A DNA stretch of 32,252 bases from positions 1-32,252 of the forward strand of contig JACETE010000006.1 in assembly GCA_013911465.1 (NCBI GenBank). The letters run 5' to 3'. The position numbers were made by a program, and so were the translations under genes. The notes under the pieces are model-generated. The model had not been told where the DNA came from and made no database searches. It was given only the letters and a program-made list of their open reading frames with translations. Source of the DNA: Candidatus Poseidoniales archaeon (lineage in GTDB: Archaea > Thermoplasmatota > Poseidoniia > Poseidoniales > Poseidoniaceae). Below, piece by piece: positions 2,262-9,234 of this stretch; positions within the stretch are counted from its first letter, which is position 1; each line of letters starts with the position of its first letter.

Positions 2262-4382
2262 ATGGCTCAAGGAGGCGATGAAAAAACTCGCAATTCGGGC
2301 CGAGTAGCATGGTTGGCTGAGCAGATCGCTCATCACTCAGATATGTACTACAATCAAGCGAAAACAGAAATTTCAGATTCTGAATTCGATGCTCTATGGG
2401 ACGAATTGAAACAACTTGCTCCTGACCACCCCCAACTGCAAAGAGTCGGTGCTGAAATCGATCCTGGTACAGTGAAGGTCGATCACATGTTTCCTATGCG
2501 TTCTCTCAACAAAGGCACAAACGATGACGATATCGCCCATTTCGTTACGGAATCTTCTTTGGAATCAACACGATTCATTTCCCAACCAAAGTTGGACGGC
2601 TCTGCATTATCCTTGGAGTATAGAAAAGGCAGACTCGTCCGAGCAGCAACCCGTGGTAGTGGAGATAGGGGGGAGGACGTGACGAAGAATGCGAGAAGAG
2701 TTGAGAATGTCCCACACACTCTGGGTGTAGAAGTGGATGTTCACATTCGCGGTGAGGTTGTCATGAGATTGGCGGTCTTTGAAGAGAAGTATCGCACCAT
2801 TTCTCCTAATCCAAGGAACCTTGCTGCGGGAGCATTACGTCAGAAAAATGCAGACGGTAAAGCGAATGCAAGTGATTTGGTTTTTCTTGCATACGATGCT
2901 AAGTTCCCTTCTGAAGCAGATCGTCACCCCGATTCGGTTTCACCCCCGAGCGAGAATTTTGATAGTGCAATTCTAGAGTGGTTAAGTGAAACAGCAGGGG
3001 TTGAACCTGCTCCTTGGGTTGTCCACGATTCGGGTTCAGAAGATGCATCCATTGAATCTCTTTGTCAAGAAACACGAACATGGAGCAAGGGACGAGAATC
3101 GTACAGTTTCGAGATCGATGGGCTTGTTTTCAAAGTCGATGATCTTGAAAAGCGGGATCTGCTCGGCATGACAGCACATCATCCAAGGTGGGCTCTTGCA
3201 TGGAAATTCCCTCCAGAGGAAGCAACATCCGTTCTGCTTGACGTTGATTGGCAAACTGGACGTACAGGCACAATCACTCCTGTTGCTCGGATTGCTCCGC
3301 AACGAGTTGGAGGGGTTACAGTTGAGAATACGACGCTTCACAATCTAGGCGAAGTTCAGCGCTTGGATATTCAAATCGGTGACAAGATTCGTATTGTACG
3401 TCGAGGCGATGTCATCCCAAAGATCGAAGCAGGTCTTGGTGTAGCCACACAAAGTGATGTTGATGGTAGAACACATGCTGATGGTGAACCATTCACAGGA
3501 GGATTACCAGAACGACGCCAGATTACTCCTCCCGATTCATGCCCTGCTTGCGCAGGACCAATCGAAATTGAAGGGGCATTCATTCGCTGTACGGATGTCC
3601 AATGTTCGGCCCGACTCGGACGAAGCATCCTGTACTATTGCAGGGCATTGGAAATGGATGGTATTGGGGAGAAGCTTGTCGAACAACTCATCGAAGAAGG
3701 TCTGATTTCAAGCATCCCAGATTTGTATCGTCTTGATCAACCAATGTTGCTTTCCCTCGATCGGATGGGACAAAAATCTGCGGACAATGTACTTAGCGAA
3801 ATTGGAAAAAGCCGCTCGATGGCATTTTCAAAATTTTTGAGTGCCCTTGGATTACCGGGGATTGGCCCAGAACTTGCGACCTCGATCTCGAACCACTTTG
3901 GGGTCCCCGCACAACTTCTACAGTGGGTTGATGTTGCATTAACAGATGCTTCACGCCTTTCAGAATTAACATCGATTGATGGTGTGGGAGACATTGTTGC
4001 TCTACAACTTCGTGATGGAATCCAATTGAGAAGAGAAATGGTTGACGATCTTCTCTCCCTACTTTCCATTCAACAGGAGGAGCGAATTGCTGAAGGCGGA
4101 ATGTTCGATGGCATGACGTTTTGTGTCACAGGTACGCTCACAGAACCAAGAAAAAGCATTCAAGCACGAATTAAAGCGGCTGGAGGCAAGGTTGTGGGAA
4201 GTGTCTCTGGTAATCTCTCTGTTTTGATTGCAGGAGAAAATGCAGGCTCAAAACTCGCTAAAGCTGAGAAATTGGGCGTTCAGGTATGGGACGAAGAGAC
4301 ACTACTTGGCCGAATTTCAGGCCAACCAGAAGAGCAGGAATCATCTTCGCCTGCGAGCCAACCAACATTGTTCGATTATTGA
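2262..4382 (+). CDS. ligA: NAD+-dependent DNA ligase LigA
   Basis: Domain Ia-like YYNQAKTEISDSEFDALWDELKQL; active-site KLDG (QPKLDGSALSLEYRKGRLVRAATRGSGDRGEDVT); Cys4 zinc finger CPAC...CTDVQC; HhH region; C-terminal BRCT (FDGMTFCVTGTLTEPRKSIQARIKAAGGKVVGSVS). Confidence 0.96.
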   Translation: MAQGGDEKTRNSGRVAWLAEQIAHHSDMYYNQAKTEISDSEFDALWDELKQLAPDHPQLQRVGAEIDPGTVKVDHMFPMRSLNKGTNDDDIAHFVTESSLESTRFISQPKLDGSALSLEYRKGRLVRAATRGSGDRGEDVTKNARRVENVPHTLGVEVDVHIRGEVVMRLAVFEEKYRTISPNPRNLAAGALRQKNADGKANASDLVFLAYDAKFPSEADRHPDSVSPPSENFDSAILEWLSETAGVEPAPWVVHDSGSEDASIESLCQETRTWSKGRESYSFEIDGLVFKVDDLEKRDLLGMTAHHPRWALAWKFPPEEATSVLLDVDWQTGRTGTITPVARIAPQRVGGVTVENTTLHNLGEVQRLDIQIGDKIRIVRRGDVIPKIEAGLGVATQSDVDGRTHADGEPFTGGLPERRQITPPDSCPACAGPIEIEGAFIRCTDVQCSARLGRSILYYCRALEMDGIGEKLVEQLIEEGLISSIPDLYRLDQPMLLSLDRMGQKSADNVLSEIGKSRSMAFSKFLSALGLPGIGPELATSISNHFGVPAQLLQWVDVALTDASRLSELTSIDGVGDIVALQLRDGIQLRREMVDDLLSLLSIQQEERIAEGGMFDGMTFCVTGTLTEPRKSIQARIKAAGGKVVGSVSGNLSVLIAGENAGSKLAKAEKLGVQVWDEETLLGRISGQPEEQESSSPASQPTLFDY

Positions 4383-4439: not shown

Positions 4440-6950
4440 ATGCAACTGAAGGCCATCCTTCTCTCAACCATCGTTGCTATGGTCATGCTTTCGCCGATTA
4501 TTGAGGCAAATTCGAGTGGTAAACACAACTCCTCCGCGAGTTGTGGTTGCCATGGTAGTAGCGCTTCCGTCACCATTTCGGAGAACTTTCCCTCCACATA
4601 TATTGCAGGGCAATCCTATTCCATTCAAGTTTCCGTGTCCGGTGGCGTATCAGGCTCACAAGGAGGTTTCAATGTTGAAGTGGACAAAGGTTCACTATCG
4701 ACAGCAGGGAATTCAGGTGTGAAGGTCAGTGGAAAGTCGATAACACACGCCAACAAAGCAAGTCGGACATGGTCGTTCGACTGGATCAGTCCATCATCGG
4801 GAAGCGGATCTGTGACCGTCAACATCGCTGGAATGACGGCAAATGGCGCCAATGGAAACAGTGGTGATGCTTGGACTACGGCCATCTTGACCATCACAGA
4901 AACCGTTGTATCCACGAACACTCCCCCAACCGTTTCAAATGTTCAAATCACTCCTTCAGGTGCAACGTCAGCGGATGACCTGACTCTTGCCTATGATTTC
5001 AACGATCAAGACATCGGAGATACAGAATCAGGCACAACAATCCATTGGTCAAAAAATGGAGTGCATCAAACACAACACGATGGATTAATGATGCTATCAA
5101 AAATCCACACAACAAGAAATGATGATTGGAGTGTATCGGTAACTCCGAGCGATGGTGAAGATTTTGGAACAACTCAATCCTCCAACATCATCATTGTACT
5201 CAATGCCCCACCAACCATCAGCTCCTCGCTTCTAGCGCCAACAACTCCGACTTCTGACGACGATATTACTGCCTCAACATTTGGTCAAAGCGACGAGGAT
5301 GGAGATGCATTGACGTTTGAATACCGTTGGTATCTTGAGGGCACATTGCAAGAGAACCTCAACGATGTTGACGTTCTTCCATCGCTTGCTACCAGAAGCG
5401 GAGACACTTGGATGGTTGAAATTCGGGCCTACGATGGGGAAGACTATTCCACTTGGGTGAGTTCAAACCCTATCTCTGTAGGTCAGCAAACATCAAACAA
5501 TGCTCCAACCGTAGATTCAATTGCGATTTCTCCAACCAATCCAACAACAACAGATACCCTTGTAGCAACCTCGACATCATCCGATGCAGATATGGATTCC
5601 ATCACCATTACTGAATATCAGTGGCGAAGGAATGGGGAACTTGTAGGAATTACAACTTCTACGGTTGACCCAGTATCGACCAACAAAGGGGAATCTTGGA
5701 GTGTTGAAGCACGATCCTTTGACGGAACAGATTGGTCTTCTTGGGTGACATCTTCCTCCATCCAAATCCTAAACTCCGTTCCAAATCTAGAATCTGCATC
5801 CATTAGTGCGGCAGAAGTAACGACGGACGAAAACATTAGTGTTAGCTCTACCATGAGCGATGCTGATGGAGATTCACTGACCATGTCCATCAAATGGTAT
5901 CTCGATGGAACGTTACAACCGGAATACAATAATCAAGTAATGTTATCAGCACAATTAACCAACAAAGGAGACATTTGGACTTCAGTGGTTGAAGCATTCG
6001 ATGGTTTCGAAACAAGCATAACTAGCCAAACGTTCACAGTTCAAATTCTAAATTCAGAACCTACAATCTCCCTCGAACTCGATGATGAAGTTACATCACA
6101 AGACATTCTCACACTCGATGCGCTTGTCGCTGATAGCGATGAGGATGTTATCGAAACCGTATCCGTTACATGGTATCGCAATGGATTCCGCGAGAGTTCG
6201 CTCGACAATACAACAACTGTTCCATCAACATATCTTGGCCCAGGTCAAGAATGGAGCGTTGAAATGGCAGTCACCGATGGCGAAGTCATTGTTGTTTCCG
6301 AAGCCTCCGTCATCATTGACAATGCACCTCCACTTGCTGTGATTTCAGTCTTAACCGATGATTTGTATGCTGGTGAACGCGTTCACCTTTCAGGAACTCA
6401 ATCGACAGATCCAGACAATGCGATTGTTCGGTACCAATGGATGTGGCCTGGTGGAGGGGCCTCTGGAATTGAGACCTCGTTTCTGATGCCATTAACCGGG
6501 ACAATCGACGTCGTGCTTTCAGTAACGGATGCATCAGGTGCAAGCAATTCGACAACATTGACGCTGACGTCAAGTTCGCCATTACCGTGCCCAAATCTAA
6601 CCTCGATTGTCTCTGGGAACGATGTTTCGTTGGAATGGACATGGACATCACCTGAACAGGCCTTGTTCGAGATAACTCGAAATGGCGTGATCATTGGCGT
6701 TACGAATTCGACAATCTTCGCCGACACACCAAGTTTGACTGGCACTTCGTCCTACCAGATTCAAACCTACATTGATGACAGAATACTCGAATCTTCATGT
6801 CAATCACCATCGGCGGATGTGATCATTGAATCATCGGTTACTGATTTTGAAGAAGGTCCGTCTTCCGTCGCAGGTCTTGGTTTAGGTTCAATTTACGTTC
6901 TTCTTGGTATACTCCTTCTTGTTTCAGCTACTCTAAGACGAGGTGACTAA
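4440..6950 (+). CDS. Secreted surface protein: signal peptide, CxCH-containing Reeler/'choice-of-anchor V'-like domain, about five Ig/PKD-like repeats, C-terminal TM anchor
   Basis: N-terminal signal MQLKAILLSTIVAMVMLSPIIEA; SCGCHG motif; domain ends SRTWSFDWISPSSGSGSVTVNIAGMTANGANGNSGDAWTTAILTI; repeated 'AP(P)T...D.D.D.L....W..NG....' units; C-terminal GLGLGSIYVLLGILLLVSATLRRGD. Confidence 0.85.
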   Translation: MQLKAILLSTIVAMVMLSPIIEANSSGKHNSSASCGCHGSSASVTISENFPSTYIAGQSYSIQVSVSGGVSGSQGGFNVEVDKGSLSTAGNSGVKVSGKSITHANKASRTWSFDWISPSSGSGSVTVNIAGMTANGANGNSGDAWTTAILTITETVVSTNTPPTVSNVQITPSGATSADDLTLAYDFNDQDIGDTESGTTIHWSKNGVHQTQHDGLMMLSKIHTTRNDDWSVSVTPSDGEDFGTTQSSNIIIVLNAPPTISSSLLAPTTPTSDDDITASTFGQSDEDGDALTFEYRWYLEGTLQENLNDVDVLPSLATRSGDTWMVEIRAYDGEDYSTWVSSNPISVGQQTSNNAPTVDSIAISPTNPTTTDTLVATSTSSDADMDSITITEYQWRRNGELVGITTSTVDPVSTNKGESWSVEARSFDGTDWSSWVTSSSIQILNSVPNLESASISAAEVTTDENISVSSTMSDADGDSLTMSIKWYLDGTLQPEYNNQVMLSAQLTNKGDIWTSVVEAFDGFETSITSQTFTVQILNSEPTISLELDDEVTSQDILTLDALVADSDEDVIETVSVTWYRNGFRESSLDNTTTVPSTYLGPGQEWSVEMAVTDGEVIVVSEASVIIDNAPPLAVISVLTDDLYAGERVHLSGTQSTDPDNAIVRYQWMWPGGGASGIETSFLMPLTGTIDVVLSVTDASGASNSTTLTLTSSSPLPCPNLTSIVSGNDVSLEWTWTSPEQALFEITRNGVIIGVTNSTIFADTPSLTGTSSYQIQTYIDDRILESSCQSPSADVIIESSVTDFEEGPSSVAGLGLGSIYVLLGILLLVSATLRRGD
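4917..6320 (+). repeat. About five tandem diverged ~90-100-aa Ig/PKD-like repeats within the 4440-6950 CDS
   Basis: Recurrent units beginning NTPPTVSN, NAPPTISS, NAPTVDS, NSVPNLES, NSEPTISL, each with SDxDxDxxxxxxxxWYxxG and GxxWxVxxxAxDG motifs. Boundaries approximate. Confidence 0.7.
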
Positions 6951-6952
6951 CC

Positions 6953-7909
6953 ATGCGCTCAAAACTCGTACTATTGGTCGTAGTTTCATTACTAATCCCA
7001 TTTCATGCAAGCGGAAATCCAGGTGGTGTTGGCAATGGGTTGGAAGATATGCAGTGTGGGGGCGCTTGCCATGGGGATGCCAATCAGAACGCGACATCAA
7101 ATCTGCAACTGAGTTTGCAAACGGCAGGTACGGTTTGGGTTGGGCAACCTGCTGAAGTTACCGTTCAGATCTCTGGCTTCGACTCATCTCACGATATCGA
7201 TCAGATTGGAATCTTCCTTCTCTCTTCCACCAATGCAAACGGTGACATTCCAACCACGGATGGTTGGGACATTCTCTCGGACGGGATGGGCGGTTCAAAC
7301 AATTATGTTGAGTACTCCTCGATTGAATCAACAACATTAACGCATTCTTGGATCCTTAGAGCAGATGAAATAGGAGACAAAACATTGTACGTCTCTGTCC
7401 ATCATGGTGACAATTCAGGGTCTGATTCAGGGCGACCGTTCTTTGGTGTTTCACAAGCATTCTCAATCACCATCGAACCAATTCCAGAAAATTTGCAACG
7501 AATAAACCCCGATTACAAGCCGCCAACATCTAGAGAGGTTGGTGAATCCACTGAATTGTGTGTACAAACCACTGCTGCAAGCAGTGTTGTGATTGAATGG
7601 CGTGAACCATCTGGATCGAGTTCGCAGTTGATAACAACTCAAAATGGAGATTGTTGGAAGGCAATATTGCCTACTGCAACAACCACTTCAACCATTGAAT
7701 GGCGGGCAATTCTGGATGGAGAAGGACCCCAACAGACAACCCCATGGTTCTCGATGACAAGTGTTGAACCAACTTGGGAAGCGGATGAAACAGCACTGTT
7801 ACTCCAATCAATTGCCCATCTTGTTCTCTTCTTTGGAGTGGTAATCTTGGTTCGAAAACCAAAACGAAAGGAAGATGAATTCAAGAATTATTTGGAGGAG
7901 AGCATATGA
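6953..7909 (+). CDS. Secreted membrane-anchored protein with CxxxCH motif; sister of upstream CxCH protein
   Basis: Signal peptide MRSKLVLLVVVSLLIPFHASG; MQCGGACHGD; beta-rich domain with VSVHHGDNSGSDSGRPFFGVS; C-terminal TM LLLQSIAHLVLFFGVVILVRKPKRK. Confidence 0.82.
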   Translation: MRSKLVLLVVVSLLIPFHASGNPGGVGNGLEDMQCGGACHGDANQNATSNLQLSLQTAGTVWVGQPAEVTVQISGFDSSHDIDQIGIFLLSSTNANGDIPTTDGWDILSDGMGGSNNYVEYSSIESTTLTHSWILRADEIGDKTLYVSVHHGDNSGSDSGRPFFGVSQAFSITIEPIPENLQRINPDYKPPTSREVGESTELCVQTTAASSVVIEWREPSGSSSQLITTQNGDCWKAILPTATTTSTIEWRAILDGEGPQQTTPWFSMTSVEPTWEADETALLLQSIAHLVLFFGVVILVRKPKRKEDEFKNYLEESI

Positions 7910-8457
7910 TTGAAGCAGCCACATTTCACGTTATGACGACTGAACTCGTAGTCGGCTCGTTTGCCCTTGCAGGATTTTGTTTCGTCCTACATTCATTCTT
8001 TACGTTCCAAAACCAAGAAAGTCAGTTCATCAAAATGATGGATACAACTGCTCATGTCGCCTTGCTTTTCGGCCTTCTCGCTCTACCGTTTGCCATTCTT
8101 TCTGGCCTTGAATCTACATCGAGTGGAGCTCATACATCGCCTCTTCTGGCCAACAAAATGCTCCTCTCAACTGCTGGAGGCGGGCTTGCATTGGGTGTTC
8201 TGTTCACCCGTTGGAGAATGGGTGACGACACCTCCTCTCGTCATCTTCACAATGCCTTTGGTTCGATCTCAACAGGCTGTATGCTCCTTACTGCATCGCT
8301 CGGAGGAACCTATTCAAGGGCCGATTCACTTACCGAATTTTTACCATTCGTTAAGGAGAACACGCTCTTACTTCCGGCATGGATGAGCATCATCGTAATT
8401 CTACTGATTTTTGGCGCACTTATTGTACGTCAAACATCAGCCGTAAAGCATGGATGA
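7906..8457 (+). CDS. Multi-TM (about 4-5) membrane protein with several His residues, possibly DUF2231/b-type-haem-like
   Basis: ATGA overlap with the upstream gene; hydrophobic helices with H in FHVMTTELVVGSFALAGFCFVLHS, TAHVALLFGLLALPFAILSG, GAHTSPLLANK, RHLHNAFGSISTGCMLL. Family assignment is tentative. Confidence 0.7.
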   Translation: MIEAATFHVMTTELVVGSFALAGFCFVLHSFFTFQNQESQFIKMMDTTAHVALLFGLLALPFAILSGLESTSSGAHTSPLLANKMLLSTAGGGLALGVLFTRWRMGDDTSSRHLHNAFGSISTGCMLLTASLGGTYSRADSLTEFLPFVKENTLLLPAWMSIIVILLIFGALIVRQTSAVKHG

Positions 8458-9234
8458 TGGTGATGGCGCTTCGTTCGGCGCCGCTTGACTCAACAGTGAT
8501 TTGAGTTGTTCTTCCAACATCTGTGCTTCCTCGAGGAGAGGTTGGTCATCAAGATGTGTAGTTGGAAGAATTGCATTGAGCTTCTTCACCAGGGCAGCAG
8601 CTGCACGAGCATCAGGGAAACGAGGATCGGCTTCGACCATGATGCTCAACACATCAATTGCTCTTCGCCTTGCCTCACTTAGCAAGACGCCATTAATTCC
8701 ACGAATAACTCCACTTGAGAGCATAGGGACATCCATATCTTTCAACATCTCACAAACGTGGTCTGTTGCTCCAATACCAACCAAATCGGTTCCTTCAGTG
8801 TCTTCATAGTCGACGGTTGGTTCCTCAATTCCTGAGTTGCCGCCAAGCCCGTCTTTCGAGAAAGCATCAACCAAAATTCCCATTCGAATCTTTGATCCCT
8901 TCGACCAGTCGTACAGCGCCCAAACGATGTCATGAACCAATGGACTCGGTATAACGAGCTCACTCATCAAAAGGATAATCTTGTCACATCCCTCGATACT
9001 GCATTCAGGTTTGCCGGCATAGGCTCGAATGATCGGCATTGGTTTGCCATCGGTTACTAACGTGAGTGGTGGCAGGCGAGGGTCGACAACGCCTCCAACA
9101 AATTCTAAATCCAAATTATCAATCAAATAATGACCAACAACACTTGACACCATGCCTACGCTTGGAAAGCAGGTGATAACAAGGGCGCCTTCGGTCACAA
9201 CGTCGGCTCGAATCTTAACGAGAGTTCCTTCCAT
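8437..9234 (-). CDS. PAC2 family protein (proteasome assembly chaperone-like ATP-grasp-associated family, COG1938/COG2047-like)
   Basis: LVITCFPSVGMVSSVVGHYLIDNLDLEFVGGVVDPRLPPLTLVTDGKPMPIIRAYAGKPE... typical PAC2 N-terminal region. Confidence 0.8.
   Translation of the reverse strand: MEGTLVKIRADVVTEGALVITCFPSVGMVSSVVGHYLIDNLDLEFVGGVVDPRLPPLTLVTDGKPMPIIRAYAGKPECSIEGCDKIILLMSELVIPSPLVHDIVWALYDWSKGSKIRMGILVDAFSKDGLGGNSGIEEPTVDYEDTEGTDLVGIGATDHVCEMLKDMDVPMLSSGVIRGINGVLLSEARRRAIDVLSIMVEADPRFPDARAAAALVKKLNAILPTTHLDDQPLLEEAQMLEEQLKSLLSQAAPNEAPSPSSMLYG

Follow-up and report, generated by a model that had tools for sequence, protein, structure and literature searches.

A conserved three-gene cassette of Poseidoniales archaea encodes putative membrane-anchored haem-c proteins of the cell surface

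Layout and conservation of the cassette

The window analyzed here is a 32,252-nucleotide stretch from a Candidatus Poseidoniales archaeon, of a group of abundant and still uncultured marine microbes (GenBank assembly GCA_013911465.1, contig JACETE010000006.1, positions 1 to 32,252), whose genome (G000) is 65% complete. It carries three closely packed open reading frames (ORFs), which are the subject of this report; these and all features within them lie on the plus strand. Gene 1 (positions 4440 to 6950; 836 amino acids) encodes a signal peptide, a choice-of-anchor V domain with a CX1CH motif, five immunoglobulin (Ig)-like repeats, a PKD domain, and a C-terminal transmembrane anchor. Gene 2 (6953 to 7909; 318 amino acids) encodes a signal peptide, a choice-of-anchor V-like domain with a CX3CH motif, an Ig-like domain, a transmembrane anchor, and a basic cytoplasmic tail. 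Gene 3 (7906 to 8457; 183 amino acids) encodes five transmembrane helices and is a probable membrane partner. Genes 1 and 2 are separated by 2 nucleotides (6950/6953), and genes 2 and 3 share an ATGA stop/start overlap (7906 to 7909), with similar overlaps in relatives. An ORF check found the three reading frames, the gap, and the overlap where a first-pass annotation, made from the DNA alone, had placed them; the signal-peptide-like starts, transmembrane ends, and CH-type motifs near the N termini that it had described for the first two proteins were likewise confirmed.

Of 146 genomes of the class (Poseidoniia), 100 had a match to gene 2 and 100 a match to gene 3, in searches that listed no match for either gene in family f3. 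In 40/40 loci fetched from two Poseidoniales families, a count that is conditional on the loci having been chosen for their matches, genes 1, 2, and 3 follow one another in this order on one strand. In most cases, neighboring genes overlap or stand apart by only a few bases. The flanking genes differ between the two families (e.g., loci L103 and L112), so the linkage of the cassette reflects more than shared surroundings. The proposed association of the three genes is thus kept across two families and different neighborhoods; the arrangement is beyond chance, and the cassette is real.

Conserved cysteine-histidine motifs in genes 1 and 2

The N-terminal region of gene 1 (positions 4491 to 4883; residues 18 to 148) matches the choice-of-anchor V family NF041895 at 96.1 bits (E = 2e-27), against a curated cut-off of 42 bits. 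It contains C35-G-C-H38 (4542 to 4553), the proposed haem-c attachment motif, and H103 (4746 to 4748), the proposed distal haem ligand. Of 41 aligned gene 1 rows, 40 retain C35, C37, H38, and H103; the exception, from locus L110, is a gene 1 cut by a contig end. The distal histidine is kept in 42/53 members of the wider domain family. The domain is followed by five Ig/PKD-like repeats of ~93 amino acids with conserved N..P boundaries at N160, N255, N353, N445, N538, and N628 (4917 to 6323; residues 160 to 628), in agreement with the stalk of about five repeats that the annotation had read at this position. A PKD domain comes next (6321 to 6560; residues 628 to 707; PF18911 [PKD_4], 32.2 bits versus a cut-off of 27), beyond which Pfam reported nothing in gene 1.

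The corresponding elements of gene 2 are C35-GGA-C39-H40 (CGGACH; 7055 to 7072; residues 35 to 40), the proposed haem-c attachment motif, and H151 (7403 to 7405), the proposed distal ligand. All four residues are invariant in 41/41 aligned rows and in a second alignment, and the CH motifs of both genes, once only read from a single sequence, therefore prove essentially invariant. An AlphaFold2 model of gene 2 (predicted local distance difference test score [pLDDT] of 85) consists of a signal helix, a motif loop preceding a β-sandwich, a second Ig-like domain, and a transmembrane helix; the anchor spans residues 279 to 300. Foldseek of gene 2 against the PDB was uninformative, returning generic Ig-like folds alone; no useful match came from comparing gene 2 with PDB sequences, and Pfam and Rfam assigned no function to genes 2 and 3. 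The cytoplasmic tails of gene 2 homologues (e.g., in L112 and L115) end in a conserved GW..EQW.WYG..YLAG, a motif that the window's copy lacks.

Gene 1 is a clear member of the NF041895 (choice-of-anchor V) and NF041894 (MXAN_6652) family, and gene 2 is a weaker match, although a homologue of gene 2 in locus L252 exceeds the cut-off of NF041895 at 45.5 bits. These models are described only as extracellular, with anchors of different types. In the open-access literature, we found no paper in which the domain name appears, no description of a haem role, an operon, or a membrane partner for them, and no prior functional claim for the domain or for CXCH. The cassette had been called undescribed; this applies to the function of its N-terminal domain, but the domain itself already has a name. 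No bacterial relatives of the domain were found in plasmid searches.

Across 53 aligned domains, the first cysteine is kept in 51, the second in 51, and the histidine in 52. The spacing between the cysteines is 1, 2, 3, or 4, while the second Cys-His stays. CX1CH is found in most gene 1 relatives and CX3CH in the gene 2 types; a close relative of gene 1 (locus L111) has the longer CGGGYCH, another family member has CGGQGCH, and a member in L252 (10086 to 10784) has the canonical CXXCH (CDDCH). A gene 2 homologue in L350 (8247 to 9203), with a nine-motif cytochrome and Ccm genes as neighbors, carries the second cysteine alone (GQPSCH). Another paralogue has a fixed position between pntB and tatC (L205:3029-4024; L143; L210), and most of its copies lack the distal histidine.

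Two cysteines and two histidines (C35, C37, H38, and H103 of gene 1) would also make a plausible site for a metal ion. Under this alternative, CXnCH...H would coordinate Cu, Zn, or mononuclear Fe in place of haem, and the cassette would act at the surface to bind or reduce metals or to deliver copper; a fusion of the domain to COX1, described below, would fit copper delivery to the oxidase as well. We consider this unlikely. At a two-cysteine metal site, one would expect constant spacing, whereas a haem-c site can tolerate variation, and natural spacing variants of haem-c motifs exist, such as CX15CH (PMC3601427). Because the spacing here runs from 1 to 4 while the second Cys-His is kept, a haem-c site is favored. 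The L350 relative retains only the second cysteine, and the distal histidine shifts between genes 1 and 2 and is missing from some paralogues. In addition, the domain tracks the Ccm haem-c maturation genes, which otherwise have no evident substrate (see below). Variable spacing around a constant Cys-His and the link to Ccm also disfavor copper specifically, which the annotation had offered as an example and which is now the weaker option.

Redox company of the domain

In the same genome, a paralogue of the domain forms the N-terminal part of COX1 and adjoins COX2 and COX3 (L204:4131-6515, contig C26). The domain-COX1 fusion also occurs in L138, L151, L159, L188, L189, L192, L207, and L211, and it was found in other families and another lineage. 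A single protein in locus L155 (3866 to 6511) combines a CXCH domain, Ig repeats, DOMON, and cytochrome b561, and outside Poseidoniia a CX3CH domain is fused to NrfD beside a multihaem cytochrome (L252:15492-17783). A second paralogue from the same genome, with a CXCH motif, opens a Rieske/cytochrome b operon (L199:7516-13191, contig C38; also L142 and L209), where it is followed by a DUF7318-like protein, a Rieske protein, cytochrome b (PF00033), and a 4Fe-4S/CCG protein; the domain heads this operon in both families. The Rieske protein carries a twin-arginine translocation (Tat) signal and CTHLCC...CICHSSRFD, and its Pfam match is weak, as is the match of L199:12041-12487 to DUF7318. The partners of the domain (COX1, Rieske/cytochrome b, cytochrome b561, and NrfD) are all redox proteins.

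According to published surveys, Marine Group II archaea possess cytochrome b, Rieske protein, and cytochrome c oxidase but lack a bc1 complex of the canonical type (PMC6336850). The occurrence of haem-c bc complexes in the absence of CXXCH has been discussed as the "haloarchaea paradox" (PMC4429474). The Rieske/cytochrome b operon is a candidate bc1 substitute, in which the CXCH protein would take the place of cytochrome c1.

The L155 protein recalls the Reeler-DOMON-cytochrome b561 architecture (PF02014, PF03351, and PF03188), with the CXCH domain joined to DOMON and cytochrome b561, and two paralogues match Reeler PF02014 weakly, at 18.5 and 20.7 bits (cut-off, 21 bits). Genes 1 and 2 are unlike Reeler proteins in that neither matches PF02014, and neither sequence nor a significant fold match identifies gene 3 as a cytochrome b561.

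These associations bear on the possibility that the cassette encodes a surface adhesin or S-layer-associated anchor, in which the Cys pair would form a structural disulfide and the Ig/PKD stalk would do the work. The stalk itself, the generic Ig-like fold matches of gene 2, and an NCBIfam name that concerns anchoring alone are in keeping with such a role. However, the histidine of CXnCH and the distal histidine are conserved along with the cysteines, vicinal CX1C disulfides are unusual, and adhesion is at odds with the COX1, NrfD, and cytochrome b561 fusions and with the cytochrome b operon. We regard an adhesin as improbable.

Haem-c maturation without canonical cytochromes c

CcmE was found in 46/60 genomes of the class and CcmC/CcmF in 59/60, the cassette's own genome included. 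There, CcmE lies at G000:C76, CcmF at C82, and CcmC at C53, so the maturation genes that would be expected beside a haem-c protein are present in the same genome. CcmE ends in CPSKY and is thus of the CXXXY form, which binds haem in Methanosarcina (PMC9084895). Class I cytochrome c (PF13442) was detected in none of the 60 class genomes, with a model that matched 7/14 controls, and a published survey reports that no Thermoplasmatota carry PF00034 or PF01322 (PMC9287336). Even sampling of 400 kb (19%) of one complete chromosome yielded a single CXXCH, versus 1.1 expected, and none behind a hydrophobic N terminus. The presence of Ccm without a canonical substrate suggests a noncanonical one. Outside the class, the domain likewise keeps to genomes with Ccm: PF01578 was present in 13/13 domain-bearing genomes versus 15/95 without the domain (Fisher p = 1.8e-9), in counts that ignore phylogeny.

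Like the canonical c-type cytochromes (c1 and class I), the products of genes 1 and 2 are secreted and membrane anchored, carry a Cys-His motif, and come from a genome with Ccm, and their paralogues hold cytochrome c1 and oxidase-linked positions. They differ from them in fold and spacing: canonical cytochromes c are helical and have CXXCH, whereas genes 1 and 2 combine a β-sandwich with CX1CH or CX3CH and lack CXXCH. None of genes 1 to 3 matched a cytochrome family in Pfam or NCBIfam.

A further alternative is that the cassette carries no electrons itself and serves as an accessory or assembly module, a thiol-redox factor or haem chaperone for respiratory complexes or haem-c maturation. Linkage to Ccm genes outside the class would suit this role, as would a ccm gene within about 5 to 11 kb in several Poseidoniales genomes, and with no CcmH in the archaeal system (PMC9084895), one can imagine that a factor is missing. 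Family f3, however, has Ccm and no listed match to gene 2 or 3, which indicates that the cassette is not required for Ccm, and the long stalk is ill-suited to a chaperone. We judge this the least probable of the three alternatives, marginally below an adhesin.

Gene 3 and its pairing with gene 2 outside the class

An AlphaFold2 model of gene 3 has five helices (pLDDT, 84), and charged loops predict an N-out/C-in topology, in which H8 and most of the conserved residues would lie outside. The only invariant histidine is H8 (7927 to 7929), predicted to sit where helix 1 ends on the extracellular side; the other invariant residues are G17, P61, G67, K84, G93, and G133. The annotation had pictured gene 3 as a membrane acceptor with histidines in or near several helices that would bind haem or copper. 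This was not borne out, as all histidines except H8 vary. A bis-His haem b was rejected for want of conserved histidine pairs, and assignment as a cytochrome b561 or COX3 was rejected on three grounds: no Pfam match, no significant fold match, and a single invariant histidine. Neither Pfam nor NCBIfam gave a family above its cut-off for gene 3.

The pairing of gene 3 with gene 2 holds in both Poseidoniales families and extends to another class of Thermoplasmatota, where homologues of gene 3 occur in 17/200 genomes. A gene 2-like ORF lies directly upstream of the gene 3 homologue in 13 of the 16 loci read from that class, and H8 is kept there too. ORFs with 8 to 12 CXXCH motifs were present in the stretch in 10/16 of these loci, and in several of them CcmA, B, C, and E adjoin the gene 2-gene 3 pair. 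The pair thus often stands beside multihaem ORFs and Ccm outside the class, a link to haem c that is independent of Poseidoniales. These multihaem clusters (L252 and L350-L364) share with the cassette the order of the pair, the CX3CH motif, and the invariant H8; their neighbor is an 8- to 9-motif cytochrome, whereas in Poseidoniales gene 1 lies upstream instead.

A probable haem-c electron-transfer module

Together, these comparisons suggest that the cassette probably encodes a module for haem-c electron transfer that is anchored in the membrane and lies outside the cytoplasm. The products of genes 1 and 2 are most likely c-type electron carriers of the outer face with one haem each, and from the motifs and their company we infer, with fair confidence, that both bind haem. 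In the mechanism that we propose, the archaeal Ccm system would attach a haem covalently to the CXnCH of the choice-of-anchor V β-sandwich (n = 1 for gene 1 and 3 for gene 2), and the motif histidine and probably the second conserved histidine (H103 or H151) would be the iron ligands. In gene 1, a stalk of about six Ig/PKD domains would carry the haem at its tip, and gene 2 would keep its own near the membrane. Gene 3, with five transmembrane helices and conserved residues facing outward, may dock gene 2 or exchange electrons with a membrane pool; a redox role for gene 3 itself is possible, and we advance it only tentatively. Electrons could flow either way, reducing an external acceptor or being taken up. 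The surface electron-transfer or haem complex suggested at the outset accordingly gains strong indirect support from the invariant motifs, Ccm, the respiratory fusions and operons, and the multihaem neighbors, but with copper disfavored and the histidine-rich picture of gene 3 unsupported.

Several observations weigh against a haem-c module. CX1CH is not established as a haem-c motif, and the only mention that we found comes from a motif-scanning pipeline whose settings admit it (PMC11218250). Gene 2 scores 24.6 bits against NF041895, below the cut-off; the distal histidine is absent from some paralogues, such as the pntB-tatC type; and the co-occurrence of domain and Ccm comes from the phylogeny-blind counts given above. 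Gene 3 has no recognizable haem or quinone motif. Its best Foldseek match to the PDB (E = 0.13, TM-score about 0.5) is not significant, with COX3, cytochrome b561, and STEAP among the weak, nonsignificant matches, and no fold is therefore assigned.

More broadly, Poseidoniia and other Thermoplasmatota may possess a separate cytochrome c family, built on choice-of-anchor V with CX1CH or CX3CH, that replaces cytochrome c1 and soluble cytochrome c. The cassette would be its cell-surface branch, made up of one haem protein on a stalk, another close to the membrane, and a dedicated five-helix partner that descends from a multihaem system for extracellular electron transfer. We put this wider proposal at slightly less than an even chance. 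If the CXnCH domain is a haem-c carrier, it would fill the electron gap between Rieske protein and oxidase in very abundant ocean archaea. It would also add CX1CH as a haem-c motif that standard CXXCH scans miss, and the cytochrome c content of other archaea would be undercounted.

Surroundings of the cassette

An Rfam search of the window returned zero families. Upstream of the cassette lies a DNA ligase-like ORF (2262 to 4382), and downstream a convergent PAC2-like ORF on the minus strand (8437 to 9234), both named from a reading of their sequences. The 3' ends of gene 3 and the PAC2-like ORF overlap by 21 bases (8437 to 8457).

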